From assembly GCF_001905095.1 (NCBI RefSeq), contig NZ_LWLS01000105.1, positions 62,001-126,000 of the forward strand: a stretch of 64,000 nt of DNA, given 5' to 3'. The notes beneath the pieces are model-generated. The model saw nothing but the letters and a program-made list of their open reading frames with translations. It did not search any database and was not told where the DNA came from. Origin of the DNA: Micromonospora sp. CB01531 (GTDB taxonomy: Bacteria; Actinomycetota; Actinomycetes; Mycobacteriales; Micromonosporaceae). Positions 20,716 through 39,109 of the stretch are shown here, piece after piece. The translations under genes were made by a program, and so were the position numbers. Numbering within the stretch: the first letter of the stretch is position 1; each line of letters opens with the position of its first letter.

Positions 20716-22420
<1,705 letters not shown>

Positions 22421-26629: not shown

Positions 26630-29236
26630 TCATCCCACCGGCGTGCGTCGGGCTGCCGAGGGCGGACGGGCCATCGATCGTGCCGCGGCACGGGGCGGCA
26701 GGGCGTGGGAGGGCACTGATCGGGCCCGCTGTGCGCGGTGGGACGCGCGTAGCCGGCGGGCCGCCAGCCGGGTGAGCGCCGCGCAACCGACCCCGACGGC
26801 CAGGGACACGACCAGCGCCGCGCCTCGCGACCACGGGCCGACCAGTGGCATCACCTGCCAGTGGATGAGGTAGATGTACAGCGAACTGCTGGCCAGTAAC
26901 CCCGCCACCCGGTTGACGGACCGACTGCTCGGCAACCTCGGTACCCAGATCAGCAGCGCGAACCCGGCTGCGATGAACGCTTCCCGCAGCGGCTGTCCGA
27001 AGAAGCCGGGCACCGTGAGCAGCGCGGTGGCGGTGACCACCACCCGCTGGCCGGTCGTGCGGGCCCGGGCCGCCGCCCAGCCGAGGGCGAACAGCCAGAA
27101 CACCAGGATCGCGGACGGGACGTGGCCGTGGGAGGTCAGCCCCGGCAGGTCGTAGCGGGTGACGAGGCCGAGCGCGGCCAGCGCGAGTGGGAACCCGAAC
27201 GGCAGCCGTCGTTCCAACCGGTCCAGTGCCGGGATCGCCAGGAGCGCTGCCGCGGCGAGCAGGATGTACACCAACGCCTCGATGAACCAGAACTGCCACT
27301 CGGTGGTCCCGTCGTGCGGGCCGAGGACGCTGTTGAGCAGCAGCACGTTGGTCAGCGTGTAGTCGCCGGTGACGGCGCCGGCCGCGGCGATCCAGGCCAC
27401 CGACGGCAGCACGATCCGGCCGACCGTGCGCAGGGCGGCGCGTACCCGCTCCCGCCGGGGCGCGGCGGTGAGCTGGAAGCGGGCGAAGTTGAACCCGGCG
27501 ACGGCGAGCAGCAGGTGCGCGCCGCCCTTGATGGTGAAGAGCGGGATGTGTGAGCCGACGATGACGACGATCGCCAGCGCCCGTAGCGCCACGCCGGTCT
27601 CCAGCACCCGACGTGGAACCGGCCGGTCCGGCACCGGCCGGGCCAGGTCCCGGATGGGGACGGTGTGCCAGTCGGCGGGCAGGTCCCCGAGAAGTTCCTG
27701 CAGCCGGATGGACGCCTCCACGTAGGACAGCGAATCGCCGCCGAGGTCGACGAAGCTCTGGTCGGGGCTGACCTCGGGCTGGTCGAGCAGCTCGGCGTAG
27801 AGCCAGCAGAGCTGTTCCGGGCCGGCCCCGGTGGGCACGGTGGCGGCCGCCGGCGGCGTGGCGAGGGCACGGACGGCCGCCAGGTCCGGCTTGCCGTTGG
27901 CCAGTCGGGGCAGCTCGGCCAGCAGCTGCGCGCGGACCACGCGGGCCGGCAGGCCCGCCGCGGCGGCGGCCAGGCGCCGCACCCGATCGGGGTGGTGGGC
28001 GCCGGTCGCGGCGACGACCAGCTCGCGGTCCGTGCCGGCGCAGTACGCCTCGACGCCGGCCTGCCGCAGGTGCTCCTCCACGCGGCGCAGGTCGACCCGC
28101 AGGCCGAAGATCTTCGCGAAGTCGGCGACCCGTCCGACGATCTCGTAGATCCCGTCCGGCCCGCGTCGGGCCACGTCCCCGGTGTGCAGCTCCGCCACGG
28201 TGCGCCCGAGGGCCAGGTCGCTCGGCCGCTCGGCGTAGCCCAGCATCACGTTCGGTCCGGCGTAGACCAACTCGCCGGTGTCCGGTTCGGGGCGGTCCGG
28301 CAGGGAACGCAGCCGGAACGAGCCGCCCGGGATCGGCACGCCGATCGCCTCGGGCCGGTGCTCGGCCAGGTCCGGCGGCAGGTACGCCATCCGGGCGGTG
28401 GCCTCGGTCTGGCCGTACATGACGAAGAACCGCCAGCCGCGGCGGCGGCCGAGGGCGGCGTACCGGGCCACCCGTTCCGGGTCGAGCCGGCCGCCGGCCT
28501 GGGTGAGGTGGCGCAGGTGGGGCAGGTGCATTCGGTCGAAGTCGACCCGGTCCAGCAGGTCGAAGGTGTACGGCACGCCGGCCAGGCTGGTGCCCTGCTC
28601 GGCGCGGAACAGCTCCCAGAAGCAGCGGTCGGTGACCGAGAGCCCGGTGAGGATCAGCGCCGCCCCGCGCAGCAGGTGACTGTTCACCACCGACAGGCCG
28701 TAGCAGTAGTGCAGCGGCAGGGTGGTGGCGGCCCGGTCGGTGTCCCGGATGTCGAGGTACTCGGCGATCGCTTCGGCGTTGGCCTGCAGGTTCGCCGACG
28801 ACAGCCGGACCAGCTTGGGGGAGCCGGTCGACCCGGAGGTGCTGAGCAGCAGCGCCAGCTCGGGATGCAGCTCGTGTCGGCTGCCGGGACGGCGCTCGTC
28901 GAGGACGACTTCTCCGTCGACGCGGCGGATCACCACGTCCGGGTCGTACGCCCGGGTCAGTTCGGTGGCCGCGGCGTCGTGGTCCCCGGGCACCAGCAGC
29001 AGGGGATGCCCGCCGGCCAGCGCCGCCAGGTACGCGACCAGCTCGTCGACCCGGTTCGCGCAGGCGAGCAGCACCAGCCGGCGGACCGGGTCGAGCCGGG
29101 CTGCCAGCGCGTCGACCCGCTCGGCCAGCTCGGCGTAGCTGAGCCGACCGTCGGCGGTGATCACTGCCGGCCGATCGCCGTGCTCGGCCAGGGCGCGGAC
29201 GAACGGCGCCGGCCCGGTGTCGGGGAGGAGGCGCAT
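26630..29236 (-). CDS. Fused adenylation domain, carrier domain and membrane acyltransferase
   Basis: An 868-aa one-chain activation and transfer enzyme. Residues 1-455 form an AMP-binding acyl or aminoacyl adenylation domain (STSGSTGSPK at 132-141, YGQTEAT at 274-280, HTGDVARR, GRVADFAKIFGLRVDL, catalytic lysine in LANGKPD, Lys449). Residues 470-535 are a phosphopantetheine carrier domain with Ser502 in DLGGDSLS. Residues 545-840 are a multi-spanning acyltransferase-3-type membrane region, with a basic tail. The logic resembles DltA-DltC plus a membrane transferase in one protein. The substrate and acceptor are unknown. An iron box lies 10 bp before the start, opposite an Fe(III) transporter operon. 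No Shine-Dalgarno sequence precedes ATG 29236. Confidence 0.85.
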   Translation of the reverse strand: MRLLPDTGPAPFVRALAEHGDRPAVITADGRLSYAELAERVDALAARLDPVRRLVLLACANRVDELVAYLAALAGGHPLLLVPGDHDAAATELTRAYDPDVVIRRVDGEVVLDERRPGSRHELHPELALLLSTSGSTGSPKLVRLSSANLQANAEAIAEYLDIRDTDRAATTLPLHYCYGLSVVNSHLLRGAALILTGLSVTDRCFWELFRAEQGTSLAGVPYTFDLLDRVDFDRMHLPHLRHLTQAGGRLDPERVARYAALGRRRGWRFFVMYGQTEATARMAYLPPDLAEHRPEAIGVPIPGGSFRLRSLPDRPEPDTGELVYAGPNVMLGYAERPSDLALGRTVAELHTGDVARRGPDGIYEIVGRVADFAKIFGLRVDLRRVEEHLRQAGVEAYCAGTDRELVVAATGAHHPDRVRRLAAAAAGLPARVVRAQLLAELPRLANGKPDLAAVRALATPPAAATVPTGAGPEQLCWLYAELLDQPEVSPDQSFVDLGGDSLSYVEASIRLQELLGDLPADWHTVPIRDLARPVPDRPVPRRVLETGVALRALAIVVIVGSHIPLFTIKGGAHLLLAVAGFNFARFQLTAAPRRERVRAALRTVGRIVLPSVAWIAAAGAVTGDYTLTNVLLLNSVLGPHDGTTEWQFWFIEALVYILLAAAALLAIPALDRLERRLPFGFPLALAALGLVTRYDLPGLTSHGHVPSAILVFWLFALGWAAARARTTGQRVVVTATALLTVPGFFGQPLREAFIAAGFALLIWVPRLPSSRSVNRVAGLLASSSLYIYLIHWQVMPLVGPWSRGAALVVSLAVGVGCAALTRLAARRLRASHRAQRARSVPSHALPPRAAARSMARPPSAARRTPVG

Positions 29237-29246
29237 GGCCGAAAGG

Positions 29247-29265
29247 TTAGGGGAGCCTCACCTAA
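29247..29265 (-). promoter_or_regulatory. Iron box (IdeR/DtxR type) of the adenylation-acyltransferase gene
   Basis: TTAGGGGAGCCTCACCTAA matches the IdeR/DtxR consensus TTAGGTTAGGCTAACCTAA at 15 of 19 positions and keeps both outer half-sites. It lies 10 bp upstream of the start at 29236, so iron-loaded repressor would shut the gene off. Confidence 0.75.
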
Positions 29266-29302: not shown

Positions 29303-29321
29303 TAAGGTAAGCCTTACCTGT
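29303..29321 (+). promoter_or_regulatory. Second iron box at the start of the Fe(III) transporter operon
   Basis: TAAGGTAAGCCTTACCTGT contains a near-perfect dyad (AGGTAAG-C-CTTACCT) and fits the IdeR/DtxR consensus at 13 of 19 positions. It runs into the GTG start of the binding-protein gene (29320), leaving no normal leader. Confidence 0.65.
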
Positions 29322-30357
29322 GCGAAAGCGTCTCAGTCTCGTTCTGGCCGGCACCCTTGCCGGCCTGGTGTCCCTGACCGCGTGCGGCGGCTCCGACAGC
29401 GACCCGGGCAAGCCCGGCGACAAGCGGCTCACCGTCTATAGCGGCCGCAGCGAAGCCCTCGTCAAGCCGGTGCTGGAGAAGTTCGAAAAAGCCACCGGTA
29501 TCACTGTCGACGTCCGCTACGGCACCACCTCGCAGATGGCCGCCCAGCTGCTGGAGGAGGGCAAGCGCAGCCCCGCAGACGCGTTCTTCGCCCAGGACGC
29601 CGGCGCGCTCGGCGCGGTCAGCAAGGCCGGACTCTTCGCGGTGTTGCCCGCCGAGCAGCTCGACCGGGTCCCGGCCACGTACCGCGACGCCAACGGTCGG
29701 TGGGTCGGTGTCAGCGGCCGGTCCCGCGTCCTGGCCTACAACGCCGACCAGGTCCGCGCCGCCGAGCTGCCGAAGAGCGTGTTCGAGCTGACCGATCCGA
29801 AGTGGCAGGGCAAGATCGGCCTCGCGCCCACCAACGGCTCCTTCCAGGCCTTCGTCACCGCCCTACGGGTGCAGCACGGCGACGCCAAGGCCCGCGAGTT
29901 CCTCACCGGCCTCAAGGCCAACCAGCCGCAGGTCCGGGAGGGCAACGTCCAGATCGTCGCCGACATCGACGCCGGCACCCTCGCCGTCGGCCTGGTCAAC
30001 CACTACTACGTGTACGAGTTGGCCAAGGAGCGCGGCGGCAGCCCCGACGTGCTGAAGGCGAAGCTGCACTTCTTCCCGGACGGCGACACCGGCGGCCTGG
30101 TCAACGCCGCCGGCGTCGGCCTGCTGGAGCGGGCCGGCACGGACCCGGACGCCCGGGCGCTGGTCGACTACCTGCTCGGCACCGAGGCGCAGACCTACTT
30201 CGCCACCCAGACCTTCGAGTACCCCCTGGCTGCCGGGGTACCCGCCGCGCCGGGCCTGCCGCAGCTCGCCGCCCTCGAGGCCCCGAAGATCGACCTCAAC
30301 GACCTCGACACGCTCGACGCCACCGTCACCATGATCAAGGAAGCGGGGCTGGCCTGA
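29320..30357 (+). CDS. Fe(III) ABC transporter substrate-binding lipoprotein
   Basis: A 345-aa periplasmic-type iron-binding protein of the FbpA/AfuA (ferric-binding) family. The signal sequence ends in a lipobox with Cys22 (SLTACGG). The mature part begins TVYSGRSEALVKPVLEKFEK and has the conserved Tyr pair NHYYVYELA that coordinates ferric iron. GTG 29320 is the only reasonable start, as an in-frame stop (TAA) lies at 29308-29310; the Shine-Dalgarno sequence is weak. It is first in an operon with a permease and an ATPase, under an iron box. Confidence 0.9.
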   Translation: MRKRLSLVLAGTLAGLVSLTACGGSDSDPGKPGDKRLTVYSGRSEALVKPVLEKFEKATGITVDVRYGTTSQMAAQLLEEGKRSPADAFFAQDAGALGAVSKAGLFAVLPAEQLDRVPATYRDANGRWVGVSGRSRVLAYNADQVRAAELPKSVFELTDPKWQGKIGLAPTNGSFQAFVTALRVQHGDAKAREFLTGLKANQPQVREGNVQIVADIDAGTLAVGLVNHYYVYELAKERGGSPDVLKAKLHFFPDGDTGGLVNAAGVGLLERAGTDPDARALVDYLLGTEAQTYFATQTFEYPLAAGVPAAPGLPQLAALEAPKIDLNDLDTLDATVTMIKEAGLA

Positions 30358-31931
30358 GCACCATCCTGGCCGGCGACCGTCGGGGCACCACCCGACGGTC
30401 GCCACGCCGGCTGATCCGGCGCCCGGCGCTCACCGCCGCCTCGGCCGCCGCCGTCGCGGTCGCCCTGCTACCGCTGGTCTACCTCGCCGTACGGACTGCC
30501 GAGGCGGGTGGTGAGCGAATCGTCGCCGAGCTGCTCACCGCCCGGGTCGCCATGCTCGCCGGACGCAGCCTCGCCCTCGCCGCCGTGGTCACCGCCGCCT
30601 GCGCCGTCCTCGGCGTCGGCACCGCGCTCCTGGTGACCCGCACCGACCTGCCCGGCCGGCGGGTCTTCGGCGTCCTCGCCGCGCTGCCGCTGGCCGTCCC
30701 CACCTACGTGGCCGGCTTCGCCTGGACCGCCACCGTCACCGGATTCGAAGGCTTCTGGGCCGCCGCCCTGCTGCTCACCGTCTGCTCCTACCCGTACGTG
30801 TTCCTGCCCGCCGTCGCCGCCCTCAACCGGACCGACCCCGGCCAGGAAGAGGTGTCCCGGTCACTGGGGAAGGGACCGTGGGCCACCCTGTTCGGGGTCA
30901 CCCTGCGTCAGATCCGCCCGGCCGTCGCCGCCGGCTCGCTGCTGGTCGCCCTTTACGTGCTCAGCGACTTCGGCGCCGTCTCCATCGTCCGGGTCGACAC
31001 CTTCACCCGGGCCATCTTCACCGCGTTCAACCTCGGCTTCGACCGCACCGGCGCGCTGGTGCTGTCCACCGTGCTGGTGCTGCTCACAGTCCTGCTGATC
31101 GGCGCCGAGCTCACCACCCGCACCCGCGACGCCCGATACGCCAGCACCGCCGTCCGACTCCCCGTACGGCTGCGGCTGGCCCGGTGGCGCGGGCCGGCGC
31201 TGGCCGGCCTGCTCGCGGTGAACGGGCTCGCTCTCGGCGTGCCGGCCGCCGGCCTGGCCCGGTGGCTCGCGGCCGGGGTGTCCCGCCCCGGCTCCCTCGC
31301 CGAGATCGCCGCCGCCGCCGGCGCGTCCCTGTCGGTCTCCCTCGCCGGCACCGCGCTGACCATGCTTCTCGCCCTGCCCCTGGGCCTGCTCACCGCCCGA
31401 GCTCCGGGACCGGTCGCCACCGCCCTCGACCGGCTCACCTACCTAGCCCACGCCCTGCCCGGCGTGGTGATCGGCCTGTCCCTGGTGTTCTTCGCGGTCA
31501 ACGTGGCGTACCCGCTCTACCAGAGCGCCTGGCTGCTCGCCCTGGCGTACGCGACGCTCTTCCTGCCGTTGGCCGTCGGCGCGGTGGCCTCCGCCGCCGC
31601 GCAGAGCCCGCCCGCCGTCGAGGAGGCCGCCCGGTCCCTCGGGCGCGGCCCGTTCACGGTGTTCCGCACCGTCACCCTGCCGCTCACCCTGCCCGGCATC
31701 GGCGCCGGGGCGGCGCTGACCTTCCTCACCTGCATGAAGGAACTCCCCGCCACCCTGCTGCTGCGCCCGACCGGGATGGACACCCTGGCCACCGAGCTGT
31801 GGACCCACACGTCCACCGCCGCGTACGCCGCCGCAGCCCCGTACGCCGCCATCCTCGTCGCGCTCGCCGCCGTGCCCACCTGGCTGCTCGCAGCCCGCAC
31901 CGGACTCACCCAAACCGGAGCCACCCGATGA
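30354..31931 (+). CDS. Fe(III) ABC transporter permease (FbpB-like, duplicated)
   Basis: A 525-aa inner-membrane permease with two homologous halves of about six helices each, typical of FbpB/AfuB. EAA-type loops occur in each half (EEVSRSLGKGPWATLFGVTL and EEAARSLGRGPFTVFRTVTL). No ATG, GTG or TTG is available before the first membrane segment. The best start is CTG at 30354, overlapping the stop of the binding-protein gene (CTGA), with AAGGAAG about 10 bp upstream. The next ATG would delete helix 1. The stop overlaps the ATPase start by 4 bp. Confidence 0.85.
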   Translation: MSTILAGDRRGTTRRSPRRLIRRPALTAASAAAVAVALLPLVYLAVRTAEAGGERIVAELLTARVAMLAGRSLALAAVVTAACAVLGVGTALLVTRTDLPGRRVFGVLAALPLAVPTYVAGFAWTATVTGFEGFWAAALLLTVCSYPYVFLPAVAALNRTDPGQEEVSRSLGKGPWATLFGVTLRQIRPAVAAGSLLVALYVLSDFGAVSIVRVDTFTRAIFTAFNLGFDRTGALVLSTVLVLLTVLLIGAELTTRTRDARYASTAVRLPVRLRLARWRGPALAGLLAVNGLALGVPAAGLARWLAAGVSRPGSLAEIAAAAGASLSVSLAGTALTMLLALPLGLLTARAPGPVATALDRLTYLAHALPGVVIGLSLVFFAVNVAYPLYQSAWLLALAYATLFLPLAVGAVASAAAQSPPAVEEAARSLGRGPFTVFRTVTLPLTLPGIGAGAALTFLTCMKELPATLLLRPTGMDTLATELWTHTSTAAYAAAAPYAAILVALAAVPTWLLAARTGLTQTGATR

Positions 31932-32956
31932 CCAACAGCATGCTGACCGTAACCGGCCTGGCCAAGTCCTACGGCCCGATGCCCGCCCTGGCCGGCGTCG
32001 ACCTCGACGTCACCCGCGGCACGCTGCTGGCGGTACTGGGACCGTCCGGCTGCGGCAAGACCACCCTGCTGCGCTGCGTCGCAGGATTCGAGCGCGCCGA
32101 CGAGGGCATGGTTGCCGTCGCCGGCCGGACGGTCGCGGGCAACCGGCTGCATGTGCCGCCGCACCGGCGCGGCGTGGCCGTCGTCCCACAGGAGGGGGCA
32201 CTGTTCCCACACCTGTCCGTCGCCGACAACGTCGGCTACGGGCTGGACCGGGCGGCCCGCCGCTCCGGCCGGGTCGAGGAGACGCTCGAACTGGTCGGCC
32301 TCGCCGCGTACGGCGCGCGGATGCCGCACCAGCTGTCGGGCGGCCAGCAGCAACGGGTCGCCATCGCCCGGGCGCTGGCTCCCCGGCCAGCGCTGGTGCT
32401 GTTGGACGAGCCGTTCAGCGCCCTGGACGCCCGGCTGCGCGCCGAACTGCGCGCTGACGTGCGACAGGCGCTGCGCGCCGACGGCGCCACCGGCGTGCTG
32501 GTCACCCACGACCAGGGCGAGGCGCTGTCCATGGCGGACGCGGTCGCGGTCATGGACGCCGGGCTGATCGTCCAGTGCGGCGCTCCCGCAGCGGTCTACC
32601 GGGACCCGGCCACCCCGTGGATCGCCCGGTTCGTGGGGGAGGCCGTGCTGCTCCCGGCCACCGTCGACGCCGACGTGGCGACCACCCCGCTCGGCCGGCT
32701 GCCGTTGCGCGGATCCGCCGCCTGCGGCGCGGCGACCGTCCTTGTCCGGCCCGAGCAGATCCGGCTCACCCCGTCCGGCGGGGCGCCGGCCACCGTGGTG
32801 CGACAAGACTTCCACGGCCACGACGCGCTGACCACGGTCCGCCTCGACGACGGCACGGTGCTGACCGCGCGGATGCTGGACGAGGACAACGGCCTGACCG
32901 CCGGCACCCGGGTCGCCATCACCGTTCGGGGGCAGGTGCGGGCGTACGCGGAGTAG
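31928..32956 (+). CDS. Fe(III) ABC transporter ATP-binding protein (FbpC-like)
   Basis: A 342-aa ATPase energising ferric iron import. Walker A GPSGCGKT (38-45), Q-loop VVPQEG, signature LSGGQQQR (136-143), Walker B LVLLDEP and a switch His in VTHDQGEAL are all present. The C-terminal 110 residues form a TOBE-like regulatory domain, as in FbpC. It is translationally coupled to the permease (ATGA) and is the last gene of the operon before a small hairpin. Confidence 0.92.
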   Translation: MTNSMLTVTGLAKSYGPMPALAGVDLDVTRGTLLAVLGPSGCGKTTLLRCVAGFERADEGMVAVAGRTVAGNRLHVPPHRRGVAVVPQEGALFPHLSVADNVGYGLDRAARRSGRVEETLELVGLAAYGARMPHQLSGGQQQRVAIARALAPRPALVLLDEPFSALDARLRAELRADVRQALRADGATGVLVTHDQGEALSMADAVAVMDAGLIVQCGAPAAVYRDPATPWIARFVGEAVLLPATVDADVATTPLGRLPLRGSAACGAATVLVRPEQIRLTPSGGAPATVVRQDFHGHDALTTVRLDDGTVLTARMLDEDNGLTAGTRVAITVRGQVRAYAE

Positions 32957-33571: not shown

Positions 33572-36500
33572 TCAGGCCCGCTGGTGACGAGGCCGGTTGC
33601 CATCGGCGGCGCTGGCGAGGCCGCGCTCGACGGCCGCGATGATCTGCGGGCGCAGCTCCTCCGGCCGGATGATGGCATCCACCGAGCCGACCTCGACCGC
33701 GCGCTGAATGCTGTGCACGCCGTCGAACTCGGCGGCCACCTCGCCCAGCTTCTCCGCCCGGACCGTGGCCCGGACGTCCATGAGCTGCGTGACCAGCGCC
33801 GCACGCTCCCCACCGGTCGCCGCGGCGATGCGCGCCTCCAGTTCGGCCACCCGCGGATCCTTTGCCGTACGGGCGTTGACGTCACCGGCGAACACCACGG
33901 CCGCCGCGGGCGCCCCGCCGATGACAGACGCGAACGAGCCCTCCACCGCGAGCACGGTCATGTTCGGGTTGAGCGCCTTGGAGAACACCACGAACGCGCC
34001 GCCGTGATACCGCGAGATCACGCAGAACACGATCGGGCCTTCGAAGTTCACGATCGCCCGGCCGATCTCCGCGCCGTACTCCAGCTGCAACTGCCGCATC
34101 GACTCCGGCGAGCCGTCGAACCCGGACAGGTTCGCCAGCACGACCAGCGGCCGGTTCCCGCTCGCCGCGTTGATCGCCCGCGCGGCCTTCTTCGACGAGC
34201 GCGGGAACAGCGTGCCCGCGGTGTAGGTGTCCGGGCCGTCGGTGGGCGGGAATCCCCGCCGCGGCACCGACCGGGACTCGATGCCGAGCAGGCACACCGG
34301 GATGCCGCCGAGGTGCACGTCCTGCACCACCGCGGTCTCGGCGTCGGCCATGCCCGCCCAGCGCTCCAGGACCGCGTGATCCTGGTCGGCCAGGGCCCGC
34401 ACCAGCGTACGGATGTCGAACGCCTTCTTGCGGTCGGGGTTGCGCTCACGGGAGAAGATCTCGCCGACGGTCGTGAAATCGCTGTCCGGCATCGCGTGCG
34501 GGTAGTCGGAGATGTCCCGGTCGACCGGGTCGGCCGTGACCGCCCGCCGCGGCCGGGTCTCGCCGGGCGCGATGTAGGTGTGGTCGTGGTGGGTCATCAG
34601 CAGGTTGCGGGCGGCCCGCAGGTCCGGCGCCCAGTACTGGGCCTGGCCGTTGGGGCCCATCACCCGGTCGTAGCCGCCGATGCCGAAGTTGTCCTCGGCC
34701 GACACCCCGCCGGAGAAGTCCAGCGACTGCTTGCCGGTCAGCACCATCGCCGAGTCCGGAGTCATCACCAGGATGCCCTTGGTGTGCATGAGCATCGTGG
34801 CTTCGGCGTTCCAGTACGGCTGAGCACCCACGGTGATCCCGGCGACCACGATGTTGATCTCGCCGCCCTGCTGGGTGAACTCCACGATCCGCTTGAGCGC
34901 GGCGGCCACCCAGTCCATGTTCTCGGTGCCCGAGCTCATCGAGATCCGCGCGCCCGCCGACAGCGCGAACCAGTCGACCGGTACGCGCATCCGCTCGGCC
35001 AGGTCGAGTGCGGCGATCACCCGCGCGCATTCCGGCTCGGCCAGCGCGCCCAGCGCCTTCGTCGGATCGCCGAGCAGCACCACCCGCGTGACGCCTTCGG
35101 GATACCGCTCGGTCGGCGTGCTCACCACACCGGCGACGATGCCCGCCTTGTTGTGCCCCTTCGGCCGGTCGACCGGGGCCAGCGCGCCGGTGTCGTCCAG
35201 GTCGTACTCGGTGAAGGTGCCGCGCTGACCGGCCAGCATCTCGGTCAGCTCGTACGGGTACGTCGTGCCGCGGCGCCGCGCCGAGAGCACCTTCTGCCGG
35301 TAGTCGTCCAGCGGCTGGATCGGCTCGTCCGTCGGCTCGGTGACCGACACCCGCATGCCCGCGTCGTAGGAGATCTGGACCGCGATGTCGGTCAGCTCGC
35401 CGGTGACCCCGTCGCGCTGCCGACCGAGGAACAGCACCTCCTCCAGGCCCGCGCCGGCCGTGATCGGCAGCACGCGCTGGGCGACGGCGTCCAGCTCCTC
35501 CATGGTCAGCTCGTTCGGCGGCCAGACGTAGATGGTGATCCGGTTGGTGTCGAACCGCTTCTTCGCCGGCCGCTGCGCCTGGACCTTGCGGATCGCGTCG
35601 AGACACGCGTCCAGCGCGCCCTCGACCGCGGGCAGCGCGAGGATCCGGCCGTCGGCGTCGCGCAGCGGCGTCAGGTCACGGACCTGGGCCATCGCCGCCA
35701 GCCGCTCGTCGGCTGGGTTGTCGGGGGCGACGCAATGGACGAGGTAGACCTCCTCGTCCGCGGACGGCAGCCGGGTCAGGTCGAAGTTCCGCAGCCGCGG
35801 CAGCTGCAGGCGCTCGGCGATCAGCGGGTGCAGCCCGCGGATGACCCGGTCCTCGCCCACGCCCGGCCGGAACGTGAACTGGTGGTGCATCGGCGTGCCG
35901 TTGCGCCCGGCCACCGACACCGTCACCCGCTGGAGCACGTCCAGCAGTCCGGCGCGGTCGACGATCTCCCGCAGCGTCGCGGCCATCGCCTCCGTCTCGG
36001 GCTGGTCGGCCCAGGTCAGGTACACATCGGCGACCGACGGCTCCGGGTCGCGGCGCGGCGTCGGAGGCGCCGAGCCAGAGCCGTCGCCGGAGTCCGAGCC
36101 GGACAGTTCGGCGACCTTTGTCAGAATCGCCGGCAGCTCGGCGAAGTCCGTGGCCGCCGCGATCAGCCGGAAGCGCTCGCCGTCGCGGTCGTACTCCGCG
36201 GTGAAGAACGAGCGCCCCGTCACCTCGACCGTTCGCGCGTCGCTCGCGCCGCGGTTGCCGTAGTAGCGCCGGCTGAGCACTTCGAGCATCGGGCCGTGAT
36301 CGGCGCCCGGCTTGCCGACGCGCTGACCGAGCAGCCGGACCAGCGGCTCGGGCGAGGCGACCATCTTCGTGATCCGCTCGGCGCGGTCGGCCGCATCCGG
36401 GTGCTGGTCGAGGTAGCGCAGGTGGCTACGGACGCCCGCGTACACCTCGGCACGCTTGCGGCGCAGCATCGGCTGGGCCGCCCACCGGAACACGATGCTG

Positions 36501-39109
36501 CGGGCCAGATCGCCGACCACCGGGAACCGGAGCTGGGTGGCGAAGATCAGGTGCTCCAGCGCCTGCCCGACCAGCTCGCGCAGTCCGTCGCCGGGCAGCG
36601 GCTCGGTCAGCCACTGCTGCAGGAACGTCACGATCACCGAGACGTCGGCCGACGCCCGTCGCTGCGCAAGGAAGATCCGGAACACGGCCTCCTCCAGCGC
36701 GGGCGTGCGCTCGAAGTCCTTGACGCCGTAGTGGGCGAGCACCCGGGCCAGCCGGTTGCGGAAGGTGTCCGGCAGCGCGGCCCGCTCGACGTCAAGGCAC
36801 TGCAGGTAGGCGTGGAAGTATTCGCGCGGGCTGTGCACCCGGGTGTCGGCCCTGGTCTCCTCGCCGACCGGCCGGTTGCGGCTGAGCTCGGACAGGTCGG
36901 CGAACAGCTGCAGCAGCTCGACCTCTGCCTCCAGCGGAGGCCGGGTGAGCTCGGACCGCGCGGCCAGGTAGTGGGACAGCGCCCGACGCTCGTCGCGGGG
37001 ATCGAGGTCGTAGCCGAGCAGCAGGCTGCGCAGGTCGGCGATGCCGCGGGCGACCCGGGCCTCGGCGGACAGACCGGTCGGCTCGGACGGCAGCTCCAGG
37101 TCGACGGCCTCGCCCTCCGCGGCCTCGCCCGGGGCTTCGTCGCCGACCGGTTCCAGACGCAGCAGCGGGGCACCGGCCTCCACCTGGCTGCCGACGGAGA
37201 CCTGGCACTCGCGCAGCTTCGCCCGGAACGGCGCGCGCAGCACGGTCTCCATCTTCATGCTCTCCAGGACGAGCACGGGCGCGCCCGCCTCGACCTCGTC
37301 CCCGACTTCGAGTGGGGTGGCGACGACCAGCGCGGGCGCGGGGGAGCGCAGCACGCCGCCCTCGTCGCGGCTGACGCGGTGCGTGATGCCGTCCACCTCG
37401 ACCAGGTGGACGGGCCCGTGCGTGTGGGTGACCAGCCGGAACTGCCGGCCGTTCACGAGGATCCGACCGGTGTGGTCGTCGTACCGATCGAGTTCGGCAT
37501 CCACCGCGGACGCCTCCCCGATGCCGACCCGGAACCGGTGCGGCCCGGTCTGCGCGACGGTCACCCGGTAGCTCGCGCCGCGGAGCTTGAGGTCGACCGG
37601 CCGGCCGCTCTCGTGCTGGACCTGCGGGCGGCCGCCGTGGGCGGTGGACAGCAGCCGCTGCTGCTCGACGAGCGCCTCGTCCTCGTACGCCTCGATCGCC
37701 GCCGCGGCCAGCGCGATGCCGGAGTGCTTGGTGGAGACCAGGCGGCCCTGCGCCCGGACCCGGTCGATCCAGCCGGTGTCAGCGCTGGCGTCGATCACCT
37801 CGGGCTGGTCGAGCAGATCGAGCAGGAAGCTCTTGTTGGTGGCGCCACCCTCGATGATCACCGTGGTCTCGGCCACCGCGCGGCGCAGCCGGCCCAGCGC
37901 TTCGTCGCGGGTACGGCCGTAGGCGATGATCTTGGCGATCATCGAGTCGAAGTCCGCCGGGATCACGTCGCCCTCGCTGACCCCGGTGTCCACCCGGATG
38001 CCGGGGCCGCTGGGCAGCGCCAGCCGGACGATCCGGCCGGGCGACGGCGCGAAGTCCCGGTCGGGATCTTCGGCGTTGAGCCGAGCCTCGACGGCATGGC
38101 CGGCCTCGGCCGGGATCCGTTCCCCGAGCCGGCCGCCGGCGGCCACGTGGATCTGGGCCTTGACCAGGTCGAAGTCGGTGGTGGCTTCGGTGATCGGGTG
38201 CTCGACCTGCAGCCGGGTGTTCACCTCGAGGAAGGCGAACAGCTTGTCGCCGGGGTGGTAGAGGAACTCGACGGTGCCCGCACCGCGATAGTTCACGGCC
38301 AGCGCGAGCCGCTCGGCCGCCGCCTTCAGCTCGCGGGTCTGGTCGGGGGTGAGAACGGGGGAGGCGGACTCCTCGATGACCTTCTGGTTGCGCCGCTGCA
38401 CCGAGCAGTCCCGGACCCCCAGCGCCCACGCGGTGCCCTGACCGTCGGCGATCACCTGCACCTCGACGTGCCGTGCGCCGGTGACCAGGCGTTCCAGGAA
38501 CACCACGCCGCTACCGAACGCGCGCTCAGCCTCCAGGCTCGTGCGCTCGTAGGCGTCGGTGAGTTCCTCCTCGCTGCGGACGACCCGGATGCCCCGGCCG
38601 CCACCACCCGCGGTCGCCTTGAGCATCAGCGGGTAGCCGATGTCGGCCGCCGCGCGCTTGGCCGCGTCCAGACTCTCCACCGCGCCGCGGCTCCACGGCG
38701 CCACCGGGACGCCGACCTCCTCGGCGATCAGCTTCGCGCCGATCTTGTCACCGAGCTCACGCATCGCGCCCGCGCTCGGACCGATGAAGGTGACACCGAC
38801 CTTCTCGCAGAGTTCGGCGAACGCCGGGTCCTCGGCGACGAAGCCCCAGCCCACCCACGCCGCGTCCGCGCGCGTCTCGACCAGCGCACGTTCGAGGATG
38901 CTGTGGTTCAGGTACGGGCGCGCCGACGCGGGCCCGAGGCAGTAGCTGTCGTCCGCTTCGCGGACGAAGGTGGCGGCGCGCTCGGCGTCGGTGTAGAGCG
39001 CGATGGTCTCGATTGGCGGGGCCCCGGTCTCGGCGTTGAGCTCGCGAACGGCGTGGATCAGCCGCATGGCGGCCTCTCCCCGGTTGACGATGGCGATGCG
39101 GCTGAACAC
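33572..39109 (-). CDS. Single-chain acyl-CoA carboxylase (biotin carboxylase, BCCP, carboxyltransferase)
   Basis: An 1845-aa multidomain enzyme that carboxylates acetyl-CoA or another short acyl-CoA. In order: biotin carboxylase ATP-grasp domain (residues 1-460; KATAGGGGRG, EVQVIADGQG, EVNTRLQVEHPITE), biotin carboxyl carrier with Lys619 in ESMKMET, a helical central region (about 680-1250), and a fused carboxyltransferase (about 1290-1845; MGPNGQAQYWAP, LANLSGFDGSPESM). This is the layout of eukaryotic ACC rather than the split bacterial subunits. GTG 39109 has GGGAGG 8 bp upstream. It appears monocistronic, ending in a strong hairpin. Its exact acyl substrate is not shown. Confidence 0.93.
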   Translation of the reverse strand: MFSRIAIVNRGEAAMRLIHAVRELNAETGAPPIETIALYTDAERAATFVREADDSYCLGPASARPYLNHSILERALVETRADAAWVGWGFVAEDPAFAELCEKVGVTFIGPSAGAMRELGDKIGAKLIAEEVGVPVAPWSRGAVESLDAAKRAAADIGYPLMLKATAGGGGRGIRVVRSEEELTDAYERTSLEAERAFGSGVVFLERLVTGARHVEVQVIADGQGTAWALGVRDCSVQRRNQKVIEESASPVLTPDQTRELKAAAERLALAVNYRGAGTVEFLYHPGDKLFAFLEVNTRLQVEHPITEATTDFDLVKAQIHVAAGGRLGERIPAEAGHAVEARLNAEDPDRDFAPSPGRIVRLALPSGPGIRVDTGVSEGDVIPADFDSMIAKIIAYGRTRDEALGRLRRAVAETTVIIEGGATNKSFLLDLLDQPEVIDASADTGWIDRVRAQGRLVSTKHSGIALAAAAIEAYEDEALVEQQRLLSTAHGGRPQVQHESGRPVDLKLRGASYRVTVAQTGPHRFRVGIGEASAVDAELDRYDDHTGRILVNGRQFRLVTHTHGPVHLVEVDGITHRVSRDEGGVLRSPAPALVVATPLEVGDEVEAGAPVLVLESMKMETVLRAPFRAKLRECQVSVGSQVEAGAPLLRLEPVGDEAPGEAAEGEAVDLELPSEPTGLSAEARVARGIADLRSLLLGYDLDPRDERRALSHYLAARSELTRPPLEAEVELLQLFADLSELSRNRPVGEETRADTRVHSPREYFHAYLQCLDVERAALPDTFRNRLARVLAHYGVKDFERTPALEEAVFRIFLAQRRASADVSVIVTFLQQWLTEPLPGDGLRELVGQALEHLIFATQLRFPVVGDLARSIVFRWAAQPMLRRKRAEVYAGVRSHLRYLDQHPDAADRAERITKMVASPEPLVRLLGQRVGKPGADHGPMLEVLSRRYYGNRGASDARTVEVTGRSFFTAEYDRDGERFRLIAAATDFAELPAILTKVAELSGSDSGDGSGSAPPTPRRDPEPSVADVYLTWADQPETEAMAATLREIVDRAGLLDVLQRVTVSVAGRNGTPMHHQFTFRPGVGEDRVIRGLHPLIAERLQLPRLRNFDLTRLPSADEEVYLVHCVAPDNPADERLAAMAQVRDLTPLRDADGRILALPAVEGALDACLDAIRKVQAQRPAKKRFDTNRITIYVWPPNELTMEELDAVAQRVLPITAGAGLEEVLFLGRQRDGVTGELTDIAVQISYDAGMRVSVTEPTDEPIQPLDDYRQKVLSARRRGTTYPYELTEMLAGQRGTFTEYDLDDTGALAPVDRPKGHNKAGIVAGVVSTPTERYPEGVTRVVLLGDPTKALGALAEPECARVIAALDLAERMRVPVDWFALSAGARISMSSGTENMDWVAAALKRIVEFTQQGGEINIVVAGITVGAQPYWNAEATMLMHTKGILVMTPDSAMVLTGKQSLDFSGGVSAEDNFGIGGYDRVMGPNGQAQYWAPDLRAARNLLMTHHDHTYIAPGETRPRRAVTADPVDRDISDYPHAMPDSDFTTVGEIFSRERNPDRKKAFDIRTLVRALADQDHAVLERWAGMADAETAVVQDVHLGGIPVCLLGIESRSVPRRGFPPTDGPDTYTAGTLFPRSSKKAARAINAASGNRPLVVLANLSGFDGSPESMRQLQLEYGAEIGRAIVNFEGPIVFCVISRYHGGAFVVFSKALNPNMTVLAVEGSFASVIGGAPAAAVVFAGDVNARTAKDPRVAELEARIAAATGGERAALVTQLMDVRATVRAEKLGEVAAEFDGVHSIQRAVEVGSVDAIIRPEELRPQIIAAVERGLASAADGNRPRHQRA

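Follow-up and report, generated by a model that had tools for sequence, protein, structure and literature searches.

What might a bacterium achieve with a single polypeptide that seems able to activate an acid, load it onto its own carrier and hand it to a membrane acyltransferase, and why should such a gene lie beside a ferric iron importer? This question is raised by the 64,000-nucleotide stretch of Micromonospora sp. CB01531 analysed here (the window), in which an adenylation-carrier-acyltransferase-3 (A-T-AT3) fusion gene is encoded divergently from genes of the FbpABC type. On balance, we favour the view that the fusion and the importer constitute a four-gene iron-starvation module, in which a membrane acyl-transfer enzyme would generate a product that aids Fe(III) uptake by its partner. 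The fusion gene and its parts are located as follows:

26630 to 29236, minus strand: A-T-AT3 fusion gene, 868 aa, comprising adenylation, carrier and membrane acyltransferase-3 domains
27863 to 29197, minus strand: adenylation domain with ANL fold, residues ~14-458; codon of A10 Lys449 at 27890-27892
28391 to 28393, minus strand: codon of Arg282, equivalent to GrsA position 331, invariant
27632 to 27829, minus strand: carrier (T/PCP) domain, residues ~470-535; codon of the phosphopantetheine Ser502 at 27731-27733
26711 to 27610, minus strand: AT3/TmAT membrane domain, residues ~543-842; R552-X10-H563 invariant, RXXR lost

The open reading frame (ORF) runs on the minus strand, the plus-strand reading of 26630-29236 being interrupted by stops. 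A first-pass annotation of the sequence had described AMP-binding, carrier (Ser502) and AT3 regions in one 868-aa chain, and Pfam places all three above their gathering cut-offs: AMP-binding at residues 14-334 (2.8e-43), PP-binding at residues 479-517 (2.1e-5, 25.1 bits versus a cut-off of 20.8) and Acyl_transf_3 (PF01757) at residues 551-817 (6.4e-13, 48.9 bits versus a cut-off of 31). An NCBIfam profile search returned no named NCBI family above its cut-off. Orthologues of the fusion are found in many Actinomycetota with 50-65% identity over ~92%, and Lys449, Ser502, Arg552 and His563 are invariant across 43 aligned homologues. Ser502 lies within GGDSL and is the predicted phosphopantetheine site of a GG[DN]S motif. 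In the full-length AlphaFold2 model (mean pLDDT 89.4), the adenylation domain is of ANL type and is followed by the carrier domain and a set of bundled membrane helices; at a pTM of 0.59, the placement of these domains relative to one another is uncertain. The same genome also holds a decayed-looking second copy, L045 (G000:C119:3481-3964), fragments of which match fusion residues 360-488 in one frame and 648-686 in another.

Both the regulatory sites and the partner genes are found directly upstream of the fusion:

29247 to 29265, unstranded: iron box 1, DtxR/IdeR type, TTAGGGGAGCCTCACCTAA
29303 to 29321, unstranded: iron box 2, TAAGGTAAGCCTTACCTGT, overlapping the GTG at 29320 with which the divergent FbpA-type gene begins
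29320 to 30357, plus strand: FbpA/HitA-type Fe(III)-binding lipoprotein (substrate-binding protein, SBP), 345 aa, with the Tyr-Tyr motif VNHYYV
30360 to 31931, plus strand: double permease of the FbpB type, start codon uncertain
31928 to 32956, plus strand: FbpC-type ATPase with a TOBE domain, overlapping the permease by 4 bp

Judged by sequence, the divergent genes encode an Fe(III) importer, because its SBP is closest to ferric-iron-binding structures and carries the Tyr-Tyr motif. The best PDB match is 7w3w (“Ferric iron ABC transporter iron-binding protein”, 7.4e-86), HitA and FbpA being matched as well, and VNHYYV lines up with VNNYY or TNHYY of solved Fe(III)-binding proteins. The Tyr pair of FbpA-type proteins serves as Fe(III) ligands.

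Exactly 10 bases separate iron box 1 from the ATG of the fusion (29236), and the box matches the consensus TTAGGTTAGGCTAACCTAA at 15/19 positions as written, both as reported in the first-pass annotation, and at 16/19 on the opposite strand. Box 2, which was absent from that annotation, fits the degenerate consensus better than box 1. Allowing up to three mismatches, the degenerate box occurs at six places in the whole 9.24-Mb genome, compared to one place for a reversed control. Since two of these six fall within the 83-bp gap between the fusion and the divergent SBP gene, the pair of boxes is more than a chance occurrence. The remaining four iron-box-like sites are located at G000:C63:28731, G000:C127:158117, G000:C83:251813 and G000:C146:3038. 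The genome encodes one DtxR/IdeR-type regulator, a Fe_dep_repr_C protein at C65:9681-9887; with this gene and the two predicted boxes, the sequence features expected of a DtxR/IdeR regulon are present. From these predicted sites, we infer that the fusion is iron-regulated.

The link to iron extends across the phylum. Fusions were gathered from plasmids, same-family genomes and named genomes, which yielded 61 actinobacterial loci. An FbpA-type SBP gene lies within 5 kb of the fusion in 44 of them, mostly together with a permease and an ATPase, and the order of SBP and fusion genes varies (divergent, upstream or downstream). An iron box, counted as a 19-mer with at least 13/19 matches ahead of the fusion or its SBP, is present at 57 of the 61 loci, compared to 1.7% of random 340-bp windows from the same loci. 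In transporter-first operons (Mycolicibacterium, Lentzea and some Nocardioides), the box precedes the SBP and not the fusion, as the operon arrangement predicts. Two transporter lineages serve as partners: one is roughly 45-71% identical to the SBP of the window, the other, exemplified by Rhodococcus and Mycolicibacterium plasmids, roughly 31-37%, while the fusions paired with either lineage are about 46-66% identical. All ten genomes in which the fusion lies apart from the transporter contain a single FbpA homologue elsewhere, and each of these unlinked FbpA genes has its own 13-17/19 box upstream. Among Micromonosporaceae, the SBP is encoded in 13 of 15 fusion-bearing but in only 20 of 86 fusion-less genomes (Fisher p=4.6e-6). 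An association of the homologues with iron genes or iron boxes, on which the first-pass annotation had made its iron claim depend, and the presence of fbpABC-like operons beside the fusion in other genomes are thus both borne out.

Could this link nonetheless be a coincidence of chance boxes and of adjacency brought about by shared mobile islands? The fusion is patchily distributed (14 of the 296 genomes sampled from the phylum) and many copies are borne on plasmids, as such an explanation would expect. We nevertheless hold it to be very improbable in view of the contrast between 57/61 boxed loci and the background rate, the boxes ahead of unlinked FbpA genes and the iron-responsive (IRO) boxes of rhizobial homologues described below. 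The patchy spread and the plasmid copies suggest instead that the fusion is a mobile accessory trait. Five plasmid copies (L006, L008, L049, L050 and L051) lie in or near heavy-metal islands with genes for P-type ATPases, a cadmium transporter, a cation transporter, CcdA and an extra signal peptidase II. Clustering of 805 neighbouring ORFs revealed no recurring family beyond SBP, permease, ATPase, apparent shadow ORFs and P-type ATPases, the last of which came mostly from plasmid loci. A larger siderophore cluster was rejected on the same clustering, which gave no companion biosynthetic family.

Complete A-T-AT3 homologues with 36-41% identity are also found in rhizobia. The motif TGA-N9-TCA, the published operator (IRO box) of RirA, an iron regulator (PMC6386902), occurs within about 130 bp upstream of 11 of the 12 rhizobial homologues and in ~5% of windows by chance; the genes are related, so that 11/12 is not a clean probability. 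In these 11 loci (L009, L010, L080, L085-L088, L093, L101, L106 and L117), the motif lies ~50-105 bp ahead of the point at which the match begins, mostly reads TA[C/G]TTGAC-N7-TCA and covers a likely -35 region. Fur or Irr operators gave no consistent signal ahead of the alphaproteobacterial genes, among which the IRO pattern alone stood out. In S. meliloti, the homologue sits three genes ahead of ndk (SMc00595), so by gene numbering the fusion orthologue is presumably SMc00592. This gene, listed as a “hypothetical, transmembrane protein”, was grouped by expression with hmuT, hmuV, fhuF and SMb21432 in a transcriptome in which the up-regulation of iron genes stood out as the most remarkable response (PMC2848241). 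On the Rhizobium phaseoli plasmid pRphaR630b (L010), genes for an AAA ATPase and for YcaO and TfuA-like proteins come after the homologue, an arrangement reminiscent of a TOMM-type peptide cluster.

Which acid might be activated? The adenylation domain has the fold, the A3 and A5 motifs and the invariant catalytic A10 Lys449 of ANL adenylating enzymes, and its model aligns with FACL13, MenE, oxalyl-CoA synthetase and VinN at Z scores of about 36-37. According to the alignment, Cys178 occupies the position of Asp235, the residue by which GrsA holds the amino group; relatives have Ser, Thr or (once) Val there. The pocket pattern Y-[C/S/T/V]-Y-G..S..T.A.M..R has few exceptions and extends to stand-alone relatives. 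VinN binds a carboxylate through Arg331 and the amino group through Asp230 (PMC7756342, PMC11253843, PMC12186527). Given that the Asp235 equivalent is absent while Arg282 is invariant, the probable substrate is a carboxylic acid lacking an alpha-amino group; it may bear a further carboxylate or a hydroxyl for recognition by Arg282. The first-pass annotation had proposed “an acyl or amino acid”; the acyl part stands, whereas the replacement of Asp by Cys, Ser or Thr among the pocket residues makes an alpha-amino acid unlikely. An alpha-amino acid as in Dlt was rejected because the Asp235 equivalent is missing. Nor does the domain look like the amino-acid-activating type found in non-ribosomal peptide synthetases (NRPS), as the position of GrsA Asp235 is Cys or Ser, or in some stand-alone relatives Thr or Val, in all homologues examined.

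Stand-alone adenylation domains sharing nearly the whole pocket occur in Clostridia, Bacteroidales, Treponema and Gammaproteobacteria. The clusters in which those examined lie concern surface or flagellar glycans and contain SDR, LuxE, LuxC, GNAT, Maf or GT2 genes, and for this reason the acid may be an ordinary metabolite that is used elsewhere to acylate surface sugars. Most of the stand-alone loci L108, L110, L113, L120, L124 and L128 adjoin a ~79-aa ORF of acyl-carrier size, with no Pfam match in the one scanned.

The glycan context also bears on a possible, in our estimate rather unlikely, reading in which a surface glycan, lipid or wall polymer is acylated under iron starvation and thereby altered in charge or permeability, the acyl group itself not holding iron. 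Apart from these same-pocket relatives, AT3 proteins commonly acetylate or succinylate glycans (PMC9558356), and the rhizobial members have IRO boxes yet no transporter neighbour, both in keeping with envelope remodelling. Taken alone, it leaves the repeated pairing with two FbpABC lineages unexplained.

The membrane domain retains the R-X10-H motif of transmembrane helix (TMH) 1, R552 and H563 being present in 43/43 homologues. Of the RXXR motif in TMH3, the first Arg is found in 0/43 and the second in 21/43 homologues, whereas most of the five AT3s from this genome that could be used for comparison retain it; the intended canonical control L135, translated in an incorrect frame, is left out of this count. 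RXXR is highly, not absolutely, conserved and has been proposed to help hold the 3'-phosphate of coenzyme A (CoA) (PMC9833829); its first Arg is conserved across most of the superfamily (PMC12423673). As read from the alignment, the domain is therefore a divergent, non-canonical AT3, the lost motif being one that is highly conserved only. Modelled alone, it reached a pLDDT of 93.8 and a pTM of 0.90. Foldseek by itself found nothing significant with this model, but realignment of its list placed every human HGSNAT entry in it at Z 12.9-14.2 over ~260 residues, the match at Z 14.2 being acetyl-CoA-bound, followed by GWT1 at 8.8 and unrelated rows at ~6. AT3 proteins belong to the HGSNAT-type TmAT fold (PMC12423673). 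Because the phosphopantetheine of a carrier has no 3'-phosphate, the loss of RXXR fits a carrier as donor and is suggestive of the fused carrier, not acyl-CoA, serving as direct donor to the AT3 domain.

A different division of labour, with the A-T part feeding another cytoplasmic enzyme and the AT3 domain transferring a different acyl group from acyl-CoA, could be argued from the conserved RX10H and from the use of acyl-CoA by the AT3 proteins studied to date (PMC9833829, PMC12423673). We judge it improbable: Actinomycetota and Alphaproteobacteria alike retain the undivided fusion, its neighbourhoods show no recurrent alternative acceptor enzyme, and RXXR as a helper in CoA holding has been lost.

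Returning to the module with a carrier-fed AT3, we propose the following sequence of events. When iron is plentiful, DtxR/IdeR would repress the module. As iron falls, IdeR, or RirA in rhizobia, would leave the promoter and the fusion would be made, a step that rests on the predicted binding sites and, by presumed orthology, on the S. meliloti transcriptome. The cytoplasmic adenylation domain would then adenylate a small, non-alpha-amino carboxylic acid and load the acyl group onto the phosphopantetheine at Ser502. Taking the role of acyl-CoA, the carrier would offer it at the mouth by which the AT3 domain opens to the cytoplasm, and Arg552/His563 would carry it through the membrane to an acceptor outside. 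Domain conservation underlies adenylation, loading and transfer; the outward direction of the transfer is presumed. The acylated product, surface-held or released, would finally hold or mobilise Fe(III) for the adjoining FbpA-type lipoprotein, as proposed from the genome context.

What the computations show directly is the domain layout, the conserved active sites, the fold, the iron boxes and the coupling of fusion and transporter in gene order and across lineages. For the acyl group, the acceptor, the identity of the product and its chelating role, we can offer guesses. Tentatively, the fusion could add an acyl group able to bind iron, such as a hydroxy- or dicarboxylate, to an extracytoplasmic polymer, glycan or lipid and so create a surface-anchored “siderophore” that feeds the FbpA-type lipoprotein. 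Alternatively, the AT3 domain could acylate a small metabolite during or after export, the released minimal siderophore being reclaimed by the Fbp transporter. With Fe(III) importer genes as the only recurring neighbours, the product could close a loop with its importer, and FbpA-type proteins bind Fe(III) directly. We find such a diffusible product doubtful, since the loci contain no recurrent exporter or other biosynthetic gene and the reported acceptors of AT3 proteins are mostly surface glycans, although stand-alone AT3s also modify antibiotics (PMC9558356, PMC9833829).

Several points weigh against a carrier-fed iron-uptake module. The homologues share descent, so that the locus counts are not independent. 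Two of the 15 Micromonosporaceae fusions (G061, locus L043, and G062, locus L041) have neither a box nor an FbpA homologue and are perhaps decoupled from iron or differently partnered. Two further loci, L060 and L074, fall just under the box threshold, and most Arthrobacter/Pseudarthrobacter fusions do not adjoin a transporter. The rhizobial fusions lack both a transporter neighbour and an IdeR box. At the level of the protein, the PP-binding score of 25.1 bits is modest, the pocket was read from an alignment to GrsA and VinN and not from a docked structure, and the Arg282 loop is one residue longer than that of VinN. The loss of RXXR could also be drift; canonical AT3s are one residue off in the RXXR spacing, and the alignment is imperfect there.

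How does the fusion relate to known systems? The Dlt system for D-alanylation of teichoic acids (DltA for adenylation, DltC as carrier and the MBOAT protein DltB) follows the same logic of adenylation, loading and membrane transfer and acts outward, and the adenylation domain of the fusion belongs to the DltA superfamily (NCBIfam DltA 57 bits, far under the cut-off). Unlike Dlt, the fusion is a single polypeptide with an HGSNAT-like AT3/TmAT part instead of an MBOAT and without the amino-acid Asp; no DltD-like neighbour recurs at its loci, and iron boxes and an Fe(III) importer are present. A Dlt-type D-alanylation system was rejected on account of the AT3/TmAT part and the absent Asp, while the fusion may still work like Dlt. 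With AT3/TmAT enzymes such as OafB, OatA, ExoH and OpgC, it shares the PF01757 match, RX10H and the HGSNAT-like model; it differs from them by its own adenylation and carrier domains, by the absence of a conserved TMH3 RXXR and by the lack of an SGNH domain. The closest named relatives of the adenylation domain are the exosortase-associated TIGR03098 (153.6 bits, cut-off 592) and VinN (3wvn, 82 bits). VinN shares the MYGQTE motif and the Arg, but has Asp230 for the amino group where the fusion has Cys178 and relatives have Ser/Thr.

NRPS siderophore synthetases have the A-T architecture and the apparent iron control in common with the fusion, which in contrast to them is a single module ending in a membrane transferase. 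This line was rejected owing to the lack of condensation and thioesterase domains and of recurring companion biosynthetic genes. The adjoining SBP, permease and ATPase are ordinary members of the FbpABC/HitABC importers, and we know of no such importer coupled to an acyl-activating enzyme. Searches of open-access literature turned up no description of the A-T-AT3 architecture, subscription papers being outside the search, and its novelty is therefore provisional. The “undescribed iron-acquisition module” of the first-pass annotation is a fair reading. Overall, that interpretation is partly supported: its iron part stands up to the survey of homologues, its substrate claim is narrowed to a probable acid without an alpha-amino group, and the passage through the membrane and the siderophore, lipid or wall polymer it named as acceptor are presumed.

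Elsewhere in the window, a 1845-aa single-chain biotin-dependent carboxylase is encoded at 33572-39109 on the minus strand, with biotin carboxylase, biotinyl, ACC_central and carboxyltransferase domains. A 1903-aa plus-strand ORF overlapping it is without a Pfam match and looks like a shadow. At 20783-22420 on the plus strand, a Rifampin monooxygenase (NF033145, 832 bits versus a cut-off of 800) is encoded, which is likely rifampin-inactivating.

The AT3 enzymes studied so far draw on CoA, and the fusion would represent an AT3 that is fed by its own covalently attached carrier. Its gene is widespread, and in two phyla its response to iron shortage is predicted to run through iron sensors that are unrelated to each other. 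Since its usual partner is an Fe(III) importer without a known chelator, the fusion could explain how soluble Fe(III) is supplied to FbpABC systems in Gram-positive bacteria. If the product is indeed a surface-anchored “siderophore”, it would define a distinct class of iron acquisition, namely wall- or membrane-tethered chelation brought about by a carrier-fed AT3.

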